Positions 15,036-40,158 of a DNA stretch of 40,158 nt are shown here, one piece after another (the stretch's first letter is position 1; every line of letters begins with the position of its first letter). Source of the stretch: a virus; the IMG/VR virus record IMGVR_UViG_3300037324_000047, positions 1 to 40,158 of that record; one strand, written 5' to 3'. Made by a program: the position numbers and the translations under genes. The notes below the pieces were generated by a model. It was not told the origin of the DNA. It was given only the letters and a program-made list of their open reading frames with translations, and did not search any database.

Positions 15036-15794
15036 TTAAACTCCTTTAATTGGCACTTTGATTACTGGATTAATGTCAAATATAGTTTCTTTTTTTTTGC
15101 CTTTTTTCTTTCCTTTATCAAGCCGGACTATCTTACTGCCCCACTTGCGTTGGAACAACTTCATCTGCTCGCGCCCCCTTTCGATTGTTCGATTATCTGA
15201 GCATCCTCCAATATTTCCATGGTCTTTTTTTATCATGTGAATGTAATTGAACCTTAATGCTCCTCTGTATTTATTAAAATGTTGCAGGCAATAATCGTAA
15301 TCCTCTTTTAAGGGCAAATTTTCGTCAAACAGAATTGGGTTTGGGATTATTCCCATCAAAGACCCGCTGATATAGTTTGTAAAGCTTAATGGCGTATACT
15401 CTCTGTAGGATCCTTTATCTCCAATGATGTTTAACCCAAATAGTTTGTACCCTGCTTCTTTAGCCATAACAAAAGCCATCTCGAAGAACTCTAATATGTC
15501 TTCTGCTTTCATTGATTTTAAAAACGGGCTTTTATCCTTAAAATCCCACAGTTTAAAATCCTCAATATCATCGTCAATCATAATACCGCCATTTTTTAAT
15601 AAGACCTGAGCAATATGGTTTCTTACCCTTGATAGGTTCCCTCTCAGATCATTTGGTATCACTCTTATTTTGTGACCTTCTGCCCTATACTCATGCTCTT
15701 CAAATTCATGCACAACGTAAATGACACTTGGCAAAATTTTATGGGTCTTGACCCCTTTTGCTCTTTTGTAGCTTGGTGCGTAGATTTCATTCAT
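15036..15794 (-). CDS. TAGT-like GT-A glycosyltransferase, second copy
   Basis: A 252-residue protein related to the next gene upstream. It starts MNEIYAPSYKRAKGVKTHKI, has SRVRNHIAQVLL and then the metal-binding acidic triad IDDD at 73-76, and a later acidic pair in LKEDYDYCL. This pattern matches small GT-A glycosyltransferases of the TET-associated (TAGT) type found in phages, which are proposed to put sugars on modified pyrimidines in DNA. The sequence shows the fold and metal motif, not the acceptor. Both copies end with the same tail, PIKGV. It overlaps the upstream copy in an ATGA. Confidence 0.65.
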   Translation of the reverse strand: MNEIYAPSYKRAKGVKTHKILPSVIYVVHEFEEHEYRAEGHKIRVIPNDLRGNLSRVRNHIAQVLLKNGGIMIDDDIEDFKLWDFKDKSPFLKSMKAEDILEFFEMAFVMAKEAGYKLFGLNIIGDKGSYREYTPLSFTNYISGSLMGIIPNPILFDENLPLKEDYDYCLQHFNKYRGALRFNYIHMIKKDHGNIGGCSDNRTIERGREQMKLFQRKWGSKIVRLDKGKKKGKKKETIFDINPVIKVPIKGV

Positions 15795-16507
15795 ACTCCT
15801 TTAATTGGTATTCTAAATTCAAACCTTGTCTTGTTCCAGATCATTATTTGTCTGCCCCATTTGTTGTTTATCTGTTTTGCGAATTTCTTTTTGTCCTGAA
15901 CACTGTATTTTATTACTGATTCCTTTCCTCCATCCTCTCCATTAAAAACGCAAACAAATCTGTTTTCTCTGATCATAAATCTATTTTTATTCATTTTAGA
16001 CGCCCAAAACTCAACATCTTCTGTGATTCTAAAATTCTCGTCATACTTAATGCCATCGAGAACATTAATTAATGCATTGCCAAAAACAGGCTTGGTAAAA
16101 GAAAATGGCTGAAAGTCTTTTAACTTTAAATTGTCTGATGAATAATCAAACCCTCCAAGCCCGGCCTGCATATCCTCTGCCATAATTTGTACCCATTCCA
16201 TTGCTTCCAAAGCTTCATCGCCTGTCAGCTTTTTTTGATGCTTTTTTTCTTTGATGCAGATAAGATCATCATCACATATCCAAGCCCAACCGTCCGGCTC
16301 CCTCTCTTTAATTAACTCCAAAATAGCATTTCTTTTTTTTGCAACAGATCCATCTTTTTTATTAGGTATACTCACTACATTTTTGCCATATCTTTTTTTG
16401 TAATTAAGAAACTGACTTTCCGGCACTACAATAGTTCCACTTTCTAAATATTCAAAGGTCTTGACTGATTCCCACCTATTAAATGAAGGTATATAAATGC
16501 TATTCAT
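15791..16507 (-). CDS. TAGT-like GT-A glycosyltransferase, first copy
   Basis: A 238-residue protein. It starts MNSIYIPSFNRWESVKTFEY, has KKRNAILELI and the metal-binding CDDD at 78-81, a second acidic motif ITEDVEFW, and the C-terminus RIPIKGV shared with its tandem paralogue. The likely reaction is sugar transfer from a nucleotide sugar. TAGT family proteins are associated in other phages with base hydroxylases and ParB-like proteins, and here a ParB-domain gene overlaps it by eight bases. No hydroxylase is visible in this genome, so the acceptor is open: DNA, RNA or protein. Confidence 0.65.
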   Translation of the reverse strand: MNSIYIPSFNRWESVKTFEYLESGTIVVPESQFLNYKKRYGKNVVSIPNKKDGSVAKKRNAILELIKEREPDGWAWICDDDLICIKEKKHQKKLTGDEALEAMEWVQIMAEDMQAGLGGFDYSSDNLKLKDFQPFSFTKPVFGNALINVLDGIKYDENFRITEDVEFWASKMNKNRFMIRENRFVCVFNGEDGGKESVIKYSVQDKKKFAKQINNKWGRQIMIWNKTRFEFRIPIKGV

Positions 16508-17093
16508 TTTTTAGGCTATTCAAATATTCTGCTCCATTTATTACCCTGCCTATGCCTTTGCTCCACGGCTTGCCGTTTGCTCTCTGACTATAAACAGATT
16601 TTAATTTAAAGTGGGTCATGGCTGAAAGCCAATCAATTTCATTGTCAAATTTCAACACCACATAATTGTTCGCCTCTCCAAGATATTCACTGAACTCAAT
16701 CTCGGCTTCTTGAATATCAAGCTTTTCTTTTATTTCCTCGTCAAAGCCCCATCCTTTCAACTGTTCAACGTCCCAATTTAAAGCAAGATCTTCTGTCTCC
16801 CACTCTCCAAAAGACAAGTTGTCCTTAATTATGAATTCCTTTTTTTGATCGTCAGATAAACTGTCAGCATAAATAACCGGCACTATTTCAAACCCTGCTT
16901 CAATACATGCTTTTAGCCTCATATTTCCACCCAAAACAACTAGGTCAGAATCCACCACTATTGGCCGTAATTCCAGCATTTCAGGAAAGTCTTTTACAGA
17001 TTTTACAAGCTGTTGAAACTTTTTGCTTTTTATCGTCCTTGGATTAATTGGATTTATTTTTAAAAGCTTAACGCTAATTTTTTTCCACTTCAT
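16500..17093 (-). CDS. ParB N-terminal-domain protein
   Basis: A 197-residue protein of the ParB/sulfiredoxin fold. It starts MKWKKISVKLLKINPINPRT, has the conserved VVLGGNMRLKACIEAGF at about 52-68, and a later IIKDNLSFGEWETEDLALNW segment typical of ParB-domain proteins linked to DNA-modifying enzymes. A longer frame reaches 17135, but it would overlap the terminator hairpin at 17124-17152; the ATG at 17093 has an A-rich leader and avoids it. It overlaps the first glycosyltransferase gene by eight bases, so the three probably act together. No methyltransferase domain is fused to it. Confidence 0.78.
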   Translation of the reverse strand: MKWKKISVKLLKINPINPRTIKSKKFQQLVKSVKDFPEMLELRPIVVDSDLVVLGGNMRLKACIEAGFEIVPVIYADSLSDDQKKEFIIKDNLSFGEWETEDLALNWDVEQLKGWGFDEEIKEKLDIQEAEIEFSEYLGEANNYVVLKFDNEIDWLSAMTHFKLKSVYSQRANGKPWSKGIGRVINGAEYLNSLKNE

Positions 17094-17123
17094 AACAGAT
17101 TTTTGTTTGTTCAATTTAAACAG

Positions 17124-17152
17124 AAAAGGAGCCACTGCAAAACAGCGGCCCC
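17124..17152 (-). terminator. Terminator before the ParB-glycosyltransferase-terminase unit
   Basis: The minus strand forms a 10-bp stem (GGGGCCGCTG with CAGTGGCTCC, two G-U pairs) with a five-base loop and then TTTTCTG. The T-run is short, so some read-through into the late genes is likely. Confidence 0.7.
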
Positions 17153-21288: not shown

Positions 21289-21789
21289 TTAAAATAGGTC
21301 TAGATTGTTCATTGAACCTCCAACAAGCGGGTGTTTTTCTTTTATCATTTTGATTCCACAAGCTAGAATGCAAACTGCATCTCCTTGGTATTTATGGATT
21401 TTATTTTGATTGGCCCATTTTTTAGCAAACTCGAAATATTTTTGCTTTCTCTCAGCCTTGTCCATACCCTTGAACTTTAGGCCTAACTGAGTCTGCCAAG
21501 TCACTGGCGCAACCTCCACAACTCTAAAGCCCATGAACTCCAGAACGGTTTTTAACTCTCTTGCCTGTCCAAGCATTTTAATGATAGCATATTTTTTGGC
21601 ATCATTCTCTCCAATGAATGCCGAAACTTTTTCAATAAAAATAATGCTAGTTTCTGGAGTATAAGATTCAAAAAAACCTTTGAGGCTTTTTGTGTCTTTT
21701 GGCATTTTTACAATTCTAATAGTAGAATTTTTTGCGACAGCGATTGCTCCGCTTTTTCCTACGTCAATCCCAAATATTATTTCCTGCAT
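21289..21789 (-). CDS. RuvC-like Holliday junction resolvase
   Basis: A 166-residue RNase H-fold nuclease that should resolve four-way DNA junctions in replication or packaging. The acidic residues are where expected: D9 in GIDVGKSGAIA, E52 in IIFIEKVSA and D136 in HKYQGDAVCILA. Length matches phage RuvC-like enzymes. It overlaps the upstream gene by 26 bases and is followed one base later by the zinc protein. Confidence 0.85.
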   Translation of the reverse strand: MQEIIFGIDVGKSGAIAVAKNSTIRIVKMPKDTKSLKGFFESYTPETSIIFIEKVSAFIGENDAKKYAIIKMLGQARELKTVLEFMGFRVVEVAPVTWQTQLGLKFKGMDKAERKQKYFEFAKKWANQNKIHKYQGDAVCILACGIKMIKEKHPLVGGSMNNLDLF

Positions 21790-22618
21790 TTTTCAGTTTT
21801 TCAAATAGTTCCAAAATTAATTCTGTGCTTTTTATTCTCTCAGCATAAGCTAATATTTTGTTGCCCTCCAACCCTTCGACCCCTTCAAACAAATTTTGCT
21901 TTTTCTTTTTTTCCTTCAACTTCTCTGTCAGAATTATAGTGGCCTTTTGTATGTCCTTTTCTGAAATTTCCCGGTCAATTATCTTATCATGCTTAATCAG
22001 ATACTTTGCGGTAAAAACTGGAAACAAGATGTTTAAAATCCCAGTTTCTCCATACTCATTAAACTGCTCCTGTAAAGTGTTGTGAAAATCCTTTTGAATT
22101 TCCTCAATCTGCTCTTCTGTAGGCGGTGTTTCTTCTTTCTCGGAACACTTATACACCTTGCCCCAAATGATGCCCTTATACTTCTTGTATGCAGAAAGGA
22201 TCTTGGTTATAAAATCAAGCGAAAATAACTGATACGAGTTTTTGTCTGGATTTCCATTCCTGTCTTTTGGCAAAAACTCGTCTAAACCTCCGATTAATGC
22301 CAGCTCAAATGCTGTTCGAATTTCGTCCAAGGTGAATCCTGAATAATACTTTCGCAGAATATCCAAAAACCTAAAAGTTTCTAGATCGGTTACGCCTCTG
22401 ATTGCATAATCTCTACAAATTCCTACGGTAAGAATTTTGACTTTAACCGGCAGACCCTCCTCCCCTTCCAAAGAATATTCAGCGATTGTTTTTCTTAGTG
22501 ATAGTCTTGCTATCCTCAGCTCGTGTTCACTGACTCCAGATAAAACGCTTTTCAATTCGAGTAGATTTTTTTTCTCCTCTAATCTCTTAATTCCAAATTC
22601 TTGTCTAATTGCTAGCAT
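21764..22618 (-). CDS. Hypothetical replication-associated protein
   Basis: A 284-residue, mostly helical protein directly downstream of the initiator gene and overlapping it by 14 bases. It starts MLAIRQEFGIKRLEEKKNLL. In lambda-like order this is where a helicase loader (P-like) would sit, but no P-loop or loader motif is visible. The C-terminus is Lys-rich then acidic. I infer a partner of the initiator without recognising a family. Confidence 0.5.
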   Translation of the reverse strand: MLAIRQEFGIKRLEEKKNLLELKSVLSGVSEHELRIARLSLRKTIAEYSLEGEEGLPVKVKILTVGICRDYAIRGVTDLETFRFLDILRKYYSGFTLDEIRTAFELALIGGLDEFLPKDRNGNPDKNSYQLFSLDFITKILSAYKKYKGIIWGKVYKCSEKEETPPTEEQIEEIQKDFHNTLQEQFNEYGETGILNILFPVFTAKYLIKHDKIIDREISEKDIQKATIILTEKLKEKKKKQNLFEGVEGLEGNKILAYAERIKSTELILELFEKLKNAGNNIWD

Positions 22619-23366
22619 TGCTATCTTTTAAATATTCCAAATATTGTTCCTGTTCTTTTGAGCTAGTTTTATTTTTAAGCTTACCCGCTTTAAAATCATT
22701 CCTAATCCAAGTTCTTGCTGTTGCAATCCAACCTTCATTTGTTCGCAAAATCTTGGTGTTTTTTTGTAAACTCCAATCTGCCACGGCATGAAAGTAGTAA
22801 TTAATGTCTATATTTTTAAACTCCTCTCCAATAAACTTTTTTTCAAACACCTCAACATTAGCCACCAAAGAATTTTTAAACATGACTTTTTTTGCCTTTA
22901 AATTTTCTTTGTCTTCTAAATCAAACAAATTGAGTGAAACTGCTTTTTCGCAGTTGAGCTCTTTTTTAATTATACTATTATTATCAGTTCTATTATTATA
23001 GGGATTACTTTTTACACCAAGGTTCGGTACACTTTGTACACTGCTCGGTACACTTTGTACACCGTCGGTTTTTTTTGAATGATTGTCCAAATACACCTCT
23101 TGCCACATTTCTGAGGTCTTCAAATACTTGGTTAAATTATCCCTTTCCAAAAAACCGTATTCAATCATTCTCTCAATCATTTTTATTACTCCAGACTTGC
23201 TGATTCCAAGATCCTCGGCAATATTTTCTCTAGTCATATAGCACCATCCAAAGTGAGATTTTGCTGTGCTTGACAAATAGAAAATCATGTCACATAGGAT
23301 ATACTCATTGTTGCTAAGCCCATTTCTTTTTCTAAAACCATGCTGAATATTAGTGAATGTTAACAT
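22605..23366 (-). CDS. Phage replication initiator with winged-helix domain
   Basis: A 253-residue protein. Residues 15-95 form a helix-turn-helix/winged helix (YMTRENIAEDLGISKSGVIK, then MIERMIEYGFLERD). A low-complexity linker with two VQSVP units (103-114) and Asn-rich sequence follows, then a C-terminal domain with WIATARTWIRNDFKAGK typical of DnaD/O-type initiators. The linker DNA contains the iterons at 23027-23062, as in lambda O, where the origin lies inside the gene. The gene overlaps the upstream gene by seven bases. Confidence 0.75.
   Translation of the reverse strand: MLTFTNIQHGFRKRNGLSNNEYILCDMIFYLSSTAKSHFGWCYMTRENIAEDLGISKSGVIKMIERMIEYGFLERDNLTKYLKTSEMWQEVYLDNHSKKTDGVQSVPSSVQSVPNLGVKSNPYNNRTDNNSIIKKELNCEKAVSLNLFDLEDKENLKAKKVMFKNSLVANVEVFEKKFIGEEFKNIDINYYFHAVADWSLQKNTKILRTNEGWIATARTWIRNDFKAGKLKNKTSSKEQEQYLEYLKDSNASN
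23027..23062. repeat. Iteron cluster, candidate replication origin
   Basis: GTACAC occurs at 23027, 23036, 23048 and 23057, as two exact 17-base units CGGTACACTTTGTACAC 21 bases apart (two helical turns). A related TACACC lies at 23013. An AT-rich stretch (about 22968-23010) adjoins it and could unwind. The array lies in the linker-coding part of the initiator gene. Confidence 0.65.
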
Positions 23367-23611
23367 CTCTCAAACTTTTTACCAGTTAAGGCATAAATCA
23401 AGACCAAAATTTGTTCTAAGGTCTTAATTTCAAATGGCTGGTGAGTGTAACTTATAAACACAAACGAGTTTTTGTTTTCTTGAAAAATTAAATCAATTGA
23501 CTCAAATCCAAAAAAATTAGAGTATCGAATTCCTATTTTTGATTTTTGCTCCACAAAACCCAATTTCTTTACCTGTTCAATTGTCAAGGTGTTTTTTGTT
23601 CCAAATCCCAT
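23360..23611 (-). CDS. Small hypothetical protein upstream of the initiator
   Basis: An 83-residue protein starting MGFGTKNTLTIEQVKKLGFV and containing aromatic strands (FVFISYTHQPFEIK). It overlaps the initiator gene by seven bases. Its ATG lies about 12 bases after a terminator T-run, so either read-through or an unrecognised start of transcription feeds the replication operon. No family is recognised. Confidence 0.55.
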   Translation of the reverse strand: MGFGTKNTLTIEQVKKLGFVEQKSKIGIRYSNFFGFESIDLIFQENKNSFVFISYTHQPFEIKTLEQILVLIYALTGKKFERC

Positions 23612-32805: not shown

Positions 32806-33171
32806 TTATATTTTACTTGCTTGAATAAAGAAATCATCTGTTTGATCTTCGCTCATTTCTAGCATACCTGCCATTGCTGCGATGTGGATATTATCCCTAT
32901 TCCAGCTAAGTGAATACTCCCAGAATATTGCCAAAGCATCCTCGGTTGAGTTTTCGACTGCTTCTTTGACCGCTGCTAATAATCCCATTTGTAGCAACAT
33001 CATTCTACCTTGGGATGGTGTGATTGAGAAGGGTACCTCTTCCAAAGGTAAATCTTCGCCCGTTGCCAAGATATATGCTTCCCTTGTGATGTACTCTATA
33101 CTACGCTCAGTTGTAATTACTTGATCATCTATAAGTATTCCGTATTCTTTTGCTAGTTTGTAGAATTTCAT
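32806..33171 (-). CDS. Small tail-fibre-associated protein
   Basis: A 121-residue acidic helical protein, MKFYKLAKEYGILIDDQVIT onward, with ITPSQGRMMLLQMGLLAAVK and a C-terminal LEMSEDQTDDFFIQASKI. This resembles small proteins often encoded between the tail fibre and lysis genes of siphoviruses; their role is not known, though fibre assembly is likely. It overlaps the fibre gene by four bases. Confidence 0.6.
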   Translation of the reverse strand: MKFYKLAKEYGILIDDQVITTERSIEYITREAYILATGEDLPLEEVPFSITPSQGRMMLLQMGLLAAVKEAVENSTEDALAIFWEYSLSWNRDNIHIAAMAGMLEMSEDQTDDFFIQASKI

Positions 33172-35033
33172 ATTCCTCCGTCGATTATTGTCCAGAAATT
33201 AGGCGAACCCGTTAAAACTGCTCTTGCTACGCTTGCCGCTGACGTATATCGTATAGTTCCAAAGTTGATAGAGATATTTGGCTTTACGGGTCTATTTGCC
33301 CACCCTATTAGCAATGCATTGTAATTTACTGTGGAGTAGTTTAAGAACGTCTTACTTGCCATAAAATTTGTAAAATTAGTAACATTGCTAACATTCCAAG
33401 CTCCAATATTCTGATTGAAAGCATTTGCGTTATTAAACATATCAACCATAGTAGTAACATTGCTAACATTCCAAGCTCCAATATTCTGATTGAAAGCAGT
33501 TGCGCTTTGAAACATCTGTTGCATATTAATAACATTCTGAGTATTCCAAGCTCCAATATTCTGATTGAAAGCATTTGCGTTATTAAACATACTACCCATA
33601 TTAGTAACATTGCTAACATTCCAAGCTCCAATATTCTGATTGAAAGCAGTTGCTCTAAAAAACATAACTGCCGTATTAGTAACACTACTAACATTCCATT
33701 CATTCATACCCCTCACCTTTGTAAGGTTTACACAATTTCGAAAAGCGGTGGAAATATTTGTAGAAATATTATAAGGAGCATCTTTCACGTCTATAGCCGC
33801 TAAATTTTCACAACCGTAAAAAGCAGATGTACCTATAACAGTTCCACCCCAAGAAATTATTTCTCCAATTTTCAAACGCTCAGCTCCGTTATTGAACTGC
33901 AAAAAGAAGATATTACCGTAGATTTTAATTCTGTATTCCCCTCTTACAAGGTATGTTTTAGTTGTATTTTCAGAGTTAAAAGTTGATATGTTTTCAACAT
34001 CACCATTACCCCAATCAACTATTACAGGTTCAAAACTTACACTTGAAAATGGTAGCCTAACCTGAAAATCGTTACTTCCACCTCCTCCTAAAACATTTCG
34101 TGTATCAAAGAATGCCTCGAAAGGTGTACTTATAATATTTCCCGTAATAATTATTTCTTGAGTTAATCCTCTTTGGCGAATGCTAAAATCAGATTTTGGA
34201 TTAATTAAAGGTTCTGGATTTCCAAATGGAAAAGTCTTTGCTCCAAGTTTTGAAATTTGTAAAAATCCGTTTCGTACAATTACTCGAAAAGTCCAGTTAA
34301 CCGAAAATAGCTGTGCTGGAATTGTTATTGTAGAATCATTTGTGACTATGATTACTTTGTTTCTCCAAGCTTCCAAAGCAGTTACATCTTCAGAAACTTC
34401 TATTTGCGTTGCTGGATCAATGATGTTAGCTAATACTATATTCTTCGCAGCCTCCGCAGCCGCAGCACTTGCAGCCGATTGCCCTGCCGATGTACTTGCA
34501 TTTCCCGCTTCTTGAATAGAATCATCTCTTGCACCTTCACTCAATAATTTTGCGTCCTCTGAATCATTTGCGAAGTTTGCTGAATCACTGGCTGAGTTTT
34601 CTGAATCTGTAGCCCGATTGTTTGAAATCTCTGCCGAACTTACAGCTTCATCTTTGTAGGCATTTGATTCAAAAGCTGATTGAGCTGAATCACTAGCAGA
34701 CTGAATCGCTTCGCCTGCTTTTTCAATCGATATATTGGCTTGCTGTGTAGCAATAATTTCAGAATCATTTGCTTCAATAGCTTTATCGGTTGCGATTTGA
34801 GCCTGAGCAATTGCCGTTTCTGCGCTTAGTACAGCATCTCCAGCCATGCTTGAAGATATTTCTGCCCCTGCAATAGAAACATCTCTTGCTTGCTCACTTA
34901 ATACTTTTGAAGCATCCGAGGCAACAGCAGACTCCAAAGCAGATATCGCATACTCTCTGGCCAAGTCAGGATCATCTTTTTTGATTATAATACGATACTC
35001 AGTAGTTTGAACTTTGACAACTTTTACGCTCAT
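33168..35033 (-). CDS. Tail fibre with BspA/DUF285-type repeats (receptor-binding candidate)
   Basis: A 621-residue protein. Residues 1-200 are Ala/Ser-rich heptad-like sequence (SAGQSAASAAAAEAAKN), probably a trimeric shaft. A beta-rich part follows with IVDWGNGDVENISTFN and RGEYRIKIYG, like a PKD fold. The tip holds an IGTSAFYGCENL unit and then five near-identical 25-residue repeats built on FNQNIGAWNVSNVTNM and a variable MF...A end, as in BspA surface proteins (DUF285). Such repeats bind surfaces, so this is the best receptor-binding candidate. Confidence 0.82.
   Translation of the reverse strand: MSVKVVKVQTTEYRIIIKKDDPDLAREYAISALESAVASDASKVLSEQARDVSIAGAEISSSMAGDAVLSAETAIAQAQIATDKAIEANDSEIIATQQANISIEKAGEAIQSASDSAQSAFESNAYKDEAVSSAEISNNRATDSENSASDSANFANDSEDAKLLSEGARDDSIQEAGNASTSAGQSAASAAAAEAAKNIVLANIIDPATQIEVSEDVTALEAWRNKVIIVTNDSTITIPAQLFSVNWTFRVIVRNGFLQISKLGAKTFPFGNPEPLINPKSDFSIRQRGLTQEIIITGNIISTPFEAFFDTRNVLGGGGSNDFQVRLPFSSVSFEPVIVDWGNGDVENISTFNSENTTKTYLVRGEYRIKIYGNIFFLQFNNGAERLKIGEIISWGGTVIGTSAFYGCENLAAIDVKDAPYNISTNISTAFRNCVNLTKVRGMNEWNVSSVTNTAVMFFRATAFNQNIGAWNVSNVTNMGSMFNNANAFNQNIGAWNTQNVINMQQMFQSATAFNQNIGAWNVSNVTTMVDMFNNANAFNQNIGAWNVSNVTNFTNFMASKTFLNYSTVNYNALLIGWANRPVKPNISINFGTIRYTSAASVARAVLTGSPNFWTIIDGGI
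33371..33715 (-). repeat. 75-bp tandem repeats in the fibre gene
   Basis: Four to five units of 75 bp share a conserved block (minus: TTCAATCAGAATATTGG followed by AGCTTGGAA) and a variable block of about 20 bases. The variable parts of two non-adjacent units are almost the same, which suggests duplication or exchange of units. Confidence 0.9.
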
Positions 35034-39249: not shown

Positions 39250-40158
39250 AATATCAATTTAGTAAGGTCTGTGTCTGGATGTAAATTTAAAGTAATCTCT
39301 CTGTCTGTGTCTTTTGCCACATCGGTTGAAGCTTCTTTTATAAATCCTTTGAATACATTGGAATTGTAGGTAAAAGTAAAATATCCATACATGTTTTCGG
39401 TGATAATCTTCCAAGCATTTAATGGTAATGCTGTCTTAATTTTTACTTTATAAGGCAAAATTAACGCTTTATTCATAGCCCCTACTGACTGATCTTGCCT
39501 TTCGGTAACAACCTTTCCTGCTATTTGACTTGTCAGGTCAGCATTTTTGTCAGCGCTCCCAAAGCTTAGCACTGTAGATTCAAAACCTTTTAGTCCAGAC
39601 CTGAGCAAAGATCCGCTTCTAAGCATGTTTCGCTTTGGACTCAATCGAACATTTATCGCATTTTCAGGATTGGCAATTCCTGTCACATAATCTAGGTCAG
39701 ATCCTTTTTCAAGTTTATGTATTCCGCTTTCCTCAACTCCAGACCCCTGCAAGATCCAAATATCATTGTCGCTTTCCGAATCAATCCCCTTTATGTTGTC
39801 TATAATAGTCATCCTACGCAATAGAGCGAGCCCGTACTGATCTCCTCTGTATTCTGCGACCATACTCAACACTTTATTTGTTTTGCTGTTCCTACAAGTC
39901 CAGCTTTGCCCTTGGTTGAACTCCTCCCTACCTTGGTTCTCCTCATACTTTTGTTCCTTATAACCTATTTTTATTGCCGAGAACATTAAGTCACTGTCAA
40001 TTACTAGCTGAAATTCTTTTATGCTTCCAAGATCTAGGCAAGGAACATCTCGGTAAAAAAACTCCTTACTTTCCAGTCTAGGTACTGAATCAATTCCAAA
40101 CCCCACACCTAAAATGGCATCTATTGTTCTGTAAAAATCCTGAAAGCTTGTCTTTAGA
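39246..40158 (-). CDS. Putative distal tail / baseplate hub protein, C-terminal part (runs over contig junction)
   Basis: This is the other end of the 666-residue protein whose first 414 residues are encoded at 1242-1. The unique part covers 252 codons (40004-39249) plus the stop; bases 40005-40158 repeat the left contig end. It contains YKEQKYEENQGREEFNQGQS and ends REITLNLHPDTDLTKLIL. An internal ATG at 40106 gives a false short gene if the circle is ignored. It overlaps the collar protein start by four bases. Confidence 0.6.
   Translation of the reverse strand, partial: LKTSFQDFYRTIDAILGVGFGIDSVPRLESKEFFYRDVPCLDLGSIKEFQLVIDSDLMFSAIKIGYKEQKYEENQGREEFNQGQSWTCRNSKTNKVLSMVAEYRGDQYGLALLRRMTIIDNIKGIDSESDNDIWILQGSGVEESGIHKLEKGSDLDYVTGIANPENAINVRLSPKRNMLRSGSLLRSGLKGFESTVLSFGSADKNADLTSQIAGKVVTERQDQSVGAMNKALILPYKVKIKTALPLNAWKIITENMYGYFTFTYNSNVFKGFIKEASTDVAKDTDREITLNLHPDTDLTKLIL
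40005..40158. repeat. Contig-end direct repeat (right copy)
   Basis: Same 154 bases as 1-154 with changes at 40131 and 40157, both silent in the encoded protein. It marks the closure point of the circular map. Confidence 0.95.

Follow-up and report, generated by a model that had tools for sequence, protein, structure and literature searches.

The repeats inside the gene at 22605-23366 are, judging from sequence comparison, very probably the replication origin of this phage, located within the gene of its own initiator. The winged helix of this protein would bind dyad-symmetric sites, a neighboring AT-rich tract would melt, and the C-terminal domain would recruit the replication machinery. The window, meaning the whole stretch of DNA analyzed (40,158 nt), is the whole virus record. 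Its first and last 154 bases (1-154 and 40005-40158) are identical at 152 positions, and the record therefore probably represents a complete genome of about 40,004 bp, either circular, circularly permuted or terminally redundant. The phage is tailed and probably infects Bacteroidota bacteria. Neither an Rfam family nor a tRNA was found in the window.

Organization of the initiator gene

The features considered here are the following.

22605..23366, minus strand: replication initiator gene, 253 aa (PHROG 428 and 678; relatives L002-L076)
23076..23342, minus strand: winged-helix N-domain, residues 9-97, presumed iteron reader (AlphaFold2, fold matches)
22899..23072, minus strand: disordered-linker part, residues 99-156, containing the putative origin (AlphaFold2 pLDDT <50 nearly throughout)
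23047..23063, minus strand: iteron 1, GGTGTACAAAGTGTACC (mismatch-tolerant 17-bp search)
23026..23042, minus strand: iteron 2, AGTGTACAAAGTGTACC (mismatch-tolerant 17-bp search)
23002..23018, minus strand: weak, degenerate third copy, GGTGTAAAAAGTAATCC (17-mer repeat scoring)
22937..23001, minus strand: AT-rich tract, presumed DNA unwinding element (75% AT, best 50-mer 80% AT)
22620..22889, minus strand: C-domain, about residues 160-249, presumed partner recruiter (common to initiators with different N-domains; phrog_6969)
21764..22618, minus strand: overlapping next gene, 284 aa, candidate helicase loader (conserved beside the C-domain; weak fold match)

The protein matches the replication-initiator families PHROG 428 (E 1e-9) and PHROG 678, "O-like" (E 1e-8), and phrog_6969 matches its residues 149-230. 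Its weak Pfam matches include HTH_36 and DnaD_N, while the RepA_N domain (PF06970) was found neither for this protein (E cutoff 0.1) nor for 24 aligned relatives (E cutoff 0.01). AlphaFold2 modeled the N-domain with a mean pLDDT of about 85-97 in most blocks, and its fold match to DnaD-N (2v79, Z 9.4, rmsd 4.7, 95 aligned) is no better than those to MarR-type and other winged helices. The iterons, the third copy and the AT-rich tract all lie inside the linker-encoding part; the first-pass annotation had already placed the repeats in the linker of a winged-helix initiator. An 83-aa ORF without clear family match (23360-23611) overlaps the start of the initiator gene and lies mostly in a segment without DNA homology in the relative L045.

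A 17-bp interrupted palindrome is the probable iteron unit

The exact direct repeat is 18 nt long, TCGGTACACTTTGTACAC, and occupies 23024-23041 and 23045-23062. The first-pass annotation had described two exact blocks of 17 bases 21 bp apart, of which the spacing is right and the length one base short. With simple low-complexity repeats excluded, no other exact direct repeat of at least 14 nt within 80 nt occurs in the 40 kb, except for a 75-nt array in a tail gene (33377 onward); this tandem repeat (33375-33698, about four copies) lies in a 621-aa presumed tail protein (33168-35033). Four GTACAC units are indeed present (23027, 23036, 23048 and 23057), but we dropped this hexamer, which had been proposed as the iteron unit, since a 17-bp dyad around AAA fits better. 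The degenerate copy at 23002-23018 had been missed in the first-pass annotation. On the coding (minus) strand of the gene the unit reads as an interrupted palindrome, GGTGTAC-AAA-GTGTACC, in which 5 of 7 arm positions are complementary around the central AAA, and it is probably the working iteron unit in the window. When up to 3 mismatches were allowed, GTACACTTTGTACAC gave 3 matches in the window versus 0.48 expected, and the 17-bp unit was found solely at 23026-23042 and 23047-23063 (0.02 expected). The filter GGT-n4-AAA-n4-ACC alone proved too loose, with 8 window matches versus 2.35 expected.

We then considered whether the DNA or the peptide is under constraint. Both window copies are in frame and encode VQSVP, and this peptide repeat accounts for part of their base identity, as it would if VQSVP were a functional linker peptide selected at the protein level. 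In 20,000 codon shuffles that kept the protein, 18 identical bases arose at this position at a rate of 0.035%, a figure that is post hoc for the 21-nt distance; when protein-preserving shuffles were scanned at distances of 12-89 nt, 0 of 100 reached 18 identical bases. The codon identity is thus above the protein-preserving null, and the linker is predicted to be disordered, both of which speak against a selected peptide. On the other hand, the looser 17-mer score was not significant for the window gene alone (p about 0.12-0.13). This, together with the presence of just two good copies and the tolerance of linkers to repeats, would also suit a recent neutral tandem duplication devoid of function. 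With just two good copies, which share a frame, the window alone cannot cleanly separate DNA from protein constraint.

Most N-domain relatives keep DNA repeats and change the peptide

We checked ten relatives with the N-domain type of the window (L049, L057, L071-L076 and the more distant L068 and L069). Results showed that linker repeats score above all 60 protein-preserving shuffles in eight of them (L057, L068, L069 and L071-L075), while the 17-mer repeat score of L049 and L076 does not exceed this null, weaker dyads being visible there by eye or with a dyad filter. In all eight repeat-passing relatives the copies are spread over at least two reading frames (the L068 gene is cut short by the chosen start, with no effect on whether its copies share a frame). 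For example, near-identical DNA in L057 is read as GCKESLQ or GVKNLD in different frames. Since one and the same DNA is translated in two or three frames in many relatives, and hence into different peptides, we conclude that the DNA is what is selected. A functional VQSVP peptide is therefore extremely improbable, and the earlier suggestion that VQSVP is a by-product of the DNA repeat gains support.

The closest N-domain relative, L071, has an N-domain 59% identical to that of the window and a site, GGTGCAGAAAGTGCACC, identical to the window's at 14 of 17 bases; the linker repeat of L072 is GGTATGGAAACCATACC. A more distant group was mixed, with repeats of another shape in L061, L063 and L064 and weak ones in L060 and L065. 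When viral contigs were searched for the doubled iteron, the sole match was the 99%-identical relative. Across the relatives, repeats and AT-rich tract are kept, whereas the sequence of the repeat and the peptide change, and often the frame as well; the first-pass annotation had named such a comparison as a check.

The sites are also symmetric. Over 15 representative sites the arms are complementary at 93 of 105 positions, compared with a mean of 61 and a maximum of 80 when arms were swapped between genes (20,000 swaps). These numbers lean towards a dyad, as representatives and register were picked by eye, for the most part with the central AAA as guide; related genes, moreover, do not count as independent. 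With the same choice of sites and register, the covariation score (pair count, 14 sites) was 0.67, versus 0.18 for shuffled pairs and at most 0.15 for slid registers. Both measures concern symmetry of the DNA, not of an RNA. Relatives have independent repeats at this position that differ in sequence, are dyad-symmetric and have co-varying arms. Together with the close match of the L071 site, they make a functionless duplication very unlikely.

An AT-rich tract follows the iterons

The AT-rich DNA reported beside the repeats was confirmed at 22937-23001, where the best 50-mer ranks in the top 1.6% of the window. In all 22 genes examined, the 50 nt after the iteron block are AT-richer than the rest of the gene (mean 0.78 versus 0.62; Wilcoxon p 5e-7, with block limits set by eye and related genes not independent). 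This is also the case in GC-rich genomes, such as L069. Cumulative GC and AT skew curves were monotonic over the window and gave no origin signal.

Alternatively, the repeats could be an operator, at which the winged-helix protein would control its own operon while replication starts elsewhere. Most of the best fold matches of the N-domain are transcription regulators, and the dyads of the family resemble sites for dimers; operator and origin roles could also coexist. However, the sites lie in the middle of the gene, after the N-domain, rather than at a promoter, promoter-like matches in the region are no more frequent than by chance, the protein families are those of replication initiators, and an operator does not account for the AT-rich tract that follows the repeats in all 22 genes. 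We therefore consider an operator very unlikely, and an origin remains our preferred interpretation.

Repeats follow the N-domain, and partners tend to follow the C-domain

Relatives sharing the C-domain were found in phages of Bacteroides, Parabacteroides, Alistipes, Croceibacter, Flavobacterium and Elizabethkingia and in viral contigs, and a scan of genome contigs gave three relatives. Many of them have linker repeats quite different in sequence from those of the window: GGTTGGAAAATCCAACC, with copies in two or three frames, in L003, L004, L017 and L029, and CTAAACGAAAGTTTAG in L009, with a near form in L016. L013, whose protein is identical to that of L014, shares the C-part and next gene of the window at 80% and 82% identity, but its N-part is 19% identical and its linker repeat is a different one, GCGGTAAAGATTCTTTA. 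DNA homology to the window stops at 23592 and resumes at 23000, so that the N-domain and the iterons differ together, as one segment.

Not all C-domain relatives have this layout, as about a dozen have no clear repeats or weak ones. Among those with other N-domains, no clear repeat was found in L005, L019, L021, L026, L027, L028 and L031, and repeats are weak in L006-L008, L018 and L050. L032, L034, L041 and L043 passed the exact-repeat test and failed the 17-mer test, and L011 passed neither of them clearly. L050 is a contig binned as a Propionibacterium MAG that carries a Bacteroidota-phage-type initiator, and is probably misbinned phage DNA. Four genes encode the C-domain only (L020, L022-L024) and have no repeat above the null; upstream of them we found just one 15-nt repeat, in L024, 0.7 kb away. 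These stand-alone proteins of about 150 aa (L020 2327-2779, L022 2327-2782, L023 and L024 2324-2779) lack the winged helix. By eye, a homologue of the gene at 21764..22618 lies close downstream in all four, and a tyrosine-recombinase-like gene directly upstream in L023 and L024.

The product of this next gene matches a PHROG of unknown function and has a weak fold match to the DnaD C-domain (Z 4.7, rmsd 4.5, 69 aligned), its predicted model giving no confident fold match. From its position and this weak match, we regard it as a candidate helicase loader. Most relatives sharing the C-domain have a homologue of it adjoining, an ATPase-like gene taking its place in L032 and L041. In L071-L073, where the window's N-domain type is joined to another C-domain, the adjoining gene reads by eye like a DnaB helicase. 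This pattern of neighbors suggests that the N-domain goes with the repeat, while the C-domain tends to go with the partner. Such a coupling is expected if one end of the protein reads DNA and the other recruits the helicase.

Elsewhere in the window, two adjacent genes (15036-16507) encode proteins that look alike by eye and possibly act in DNA modification, and the adjoining gene at 16500-17135 appears ParB-like by eye.

Comparison with lambda, RepA_N plasmids and sequenced Bacteroidota phages

The lambda origin lies in the middle of gene O and consists of four inverted-repeat iterons with central A-tracts and a 38-bp AT-rich tract (PMC3349717, PMC7466680), and a passage of PMC7466680 citing Dodson 1986 states that two iterons and the AT-rich region suffice for unwinding. 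The window resembles lambda (iterons as annotated in NC_001416) in its repeats in the middle of the initiator gene, inverted and with a central A-tract, in the adjacent AT-rich tract and in the overlapping next gene. Both the window N-domain (E 1e-8) and lambda O (E 2e-35) match PHROG 678, a remote link made through a shared winged-helix-type profile. The differences are in the iteron sequence, in the number of good copies (two versus four), in the C-domain (phrog_6969 versus phrog_277 and phrog_2357 in lambda O) and in the next gene, which is not recognizably P. The likeness to lambda ori drawn in the first-pass annotation is therefore right for the layout and the N-domain type and fails for the C-domain; a full-length homologue of lambda O was ruled out on this ground.

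In the plasmid pSK41 the origin encodes the Rep linker, which tolerates in-frame deletion, and in pPR9 the N-domain and origin region have been exchanged naturally with retention of the C-domain (PMC5703833). The iterons of the RepA_N family are inverted repeats that meet at a poly-A tract (PMC7145576). The window shares with these plasmids the winged-helix N-domain, repeats encoding the linker and a separate C-domain, and differs in having no RepA_N match and in belonging to a phage, not a plasmid. By its sequence, the window follows the plan already known from lambda and from some staphylococcal plasmids of the pSK41 type, with a sequence and a C-domain of its own.

Homologous C-domains and linker repeats were also found in Parabacteroides PD491P1, Bacteroides BKO1-3, Flavobacterium FCOV-F56 and Elizabethkingia TCUEAP2, which differ from the window in repeat sequences and N-domains. 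All four have a gene of about 300 aa next to the initiator, followed in BKO1-3 by an annotated resolvase. Their annotations list the initiator as "hypothetical" and mark no origin in the portions examined.

Model and implications

In the model we propose, the three 17-bp dyads, of which two are good and one is weak, would be bound by the winged-helix N-domain, presumably in dimeric form; the AT-rich tract adjoining them would melt, and replication would start here. The C-domain would recruit the replicative machinery, probably the host DnaB helicase loaded via the product of the overlapping next gene. The linker peptide would largely be whatever the origin DNA happens to encode.

Going further, and only tentatively, winged-helix domain and origin repeats may move between initiators of Bacteroidota phages as a cassette, with a shared pattern of roughly GGT-n4-AAA-n4-ACC whose inner four bases are variable and symmetric; we hold this to have slightly under an even chance. 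As site and reader are adjacent in one gene, recombination can exchange both at once. A literature search found no description of origins in these phages, although it covered open-access papers only and is weak evidence of absence.

These data provide a candidate origin, directly testable, for a group of Bacteroidota phages of which some are cultured, and add comparative evidence to the lambda/pSK41 design, in which the DNA determines the linker peptide. The co-varying half-sites are a starting point for understanding how these winged helices choose their DNA. If the cassette interpretation is true, the origin would be predictable from sequence and the specificity of the initiator readable from the half-site.
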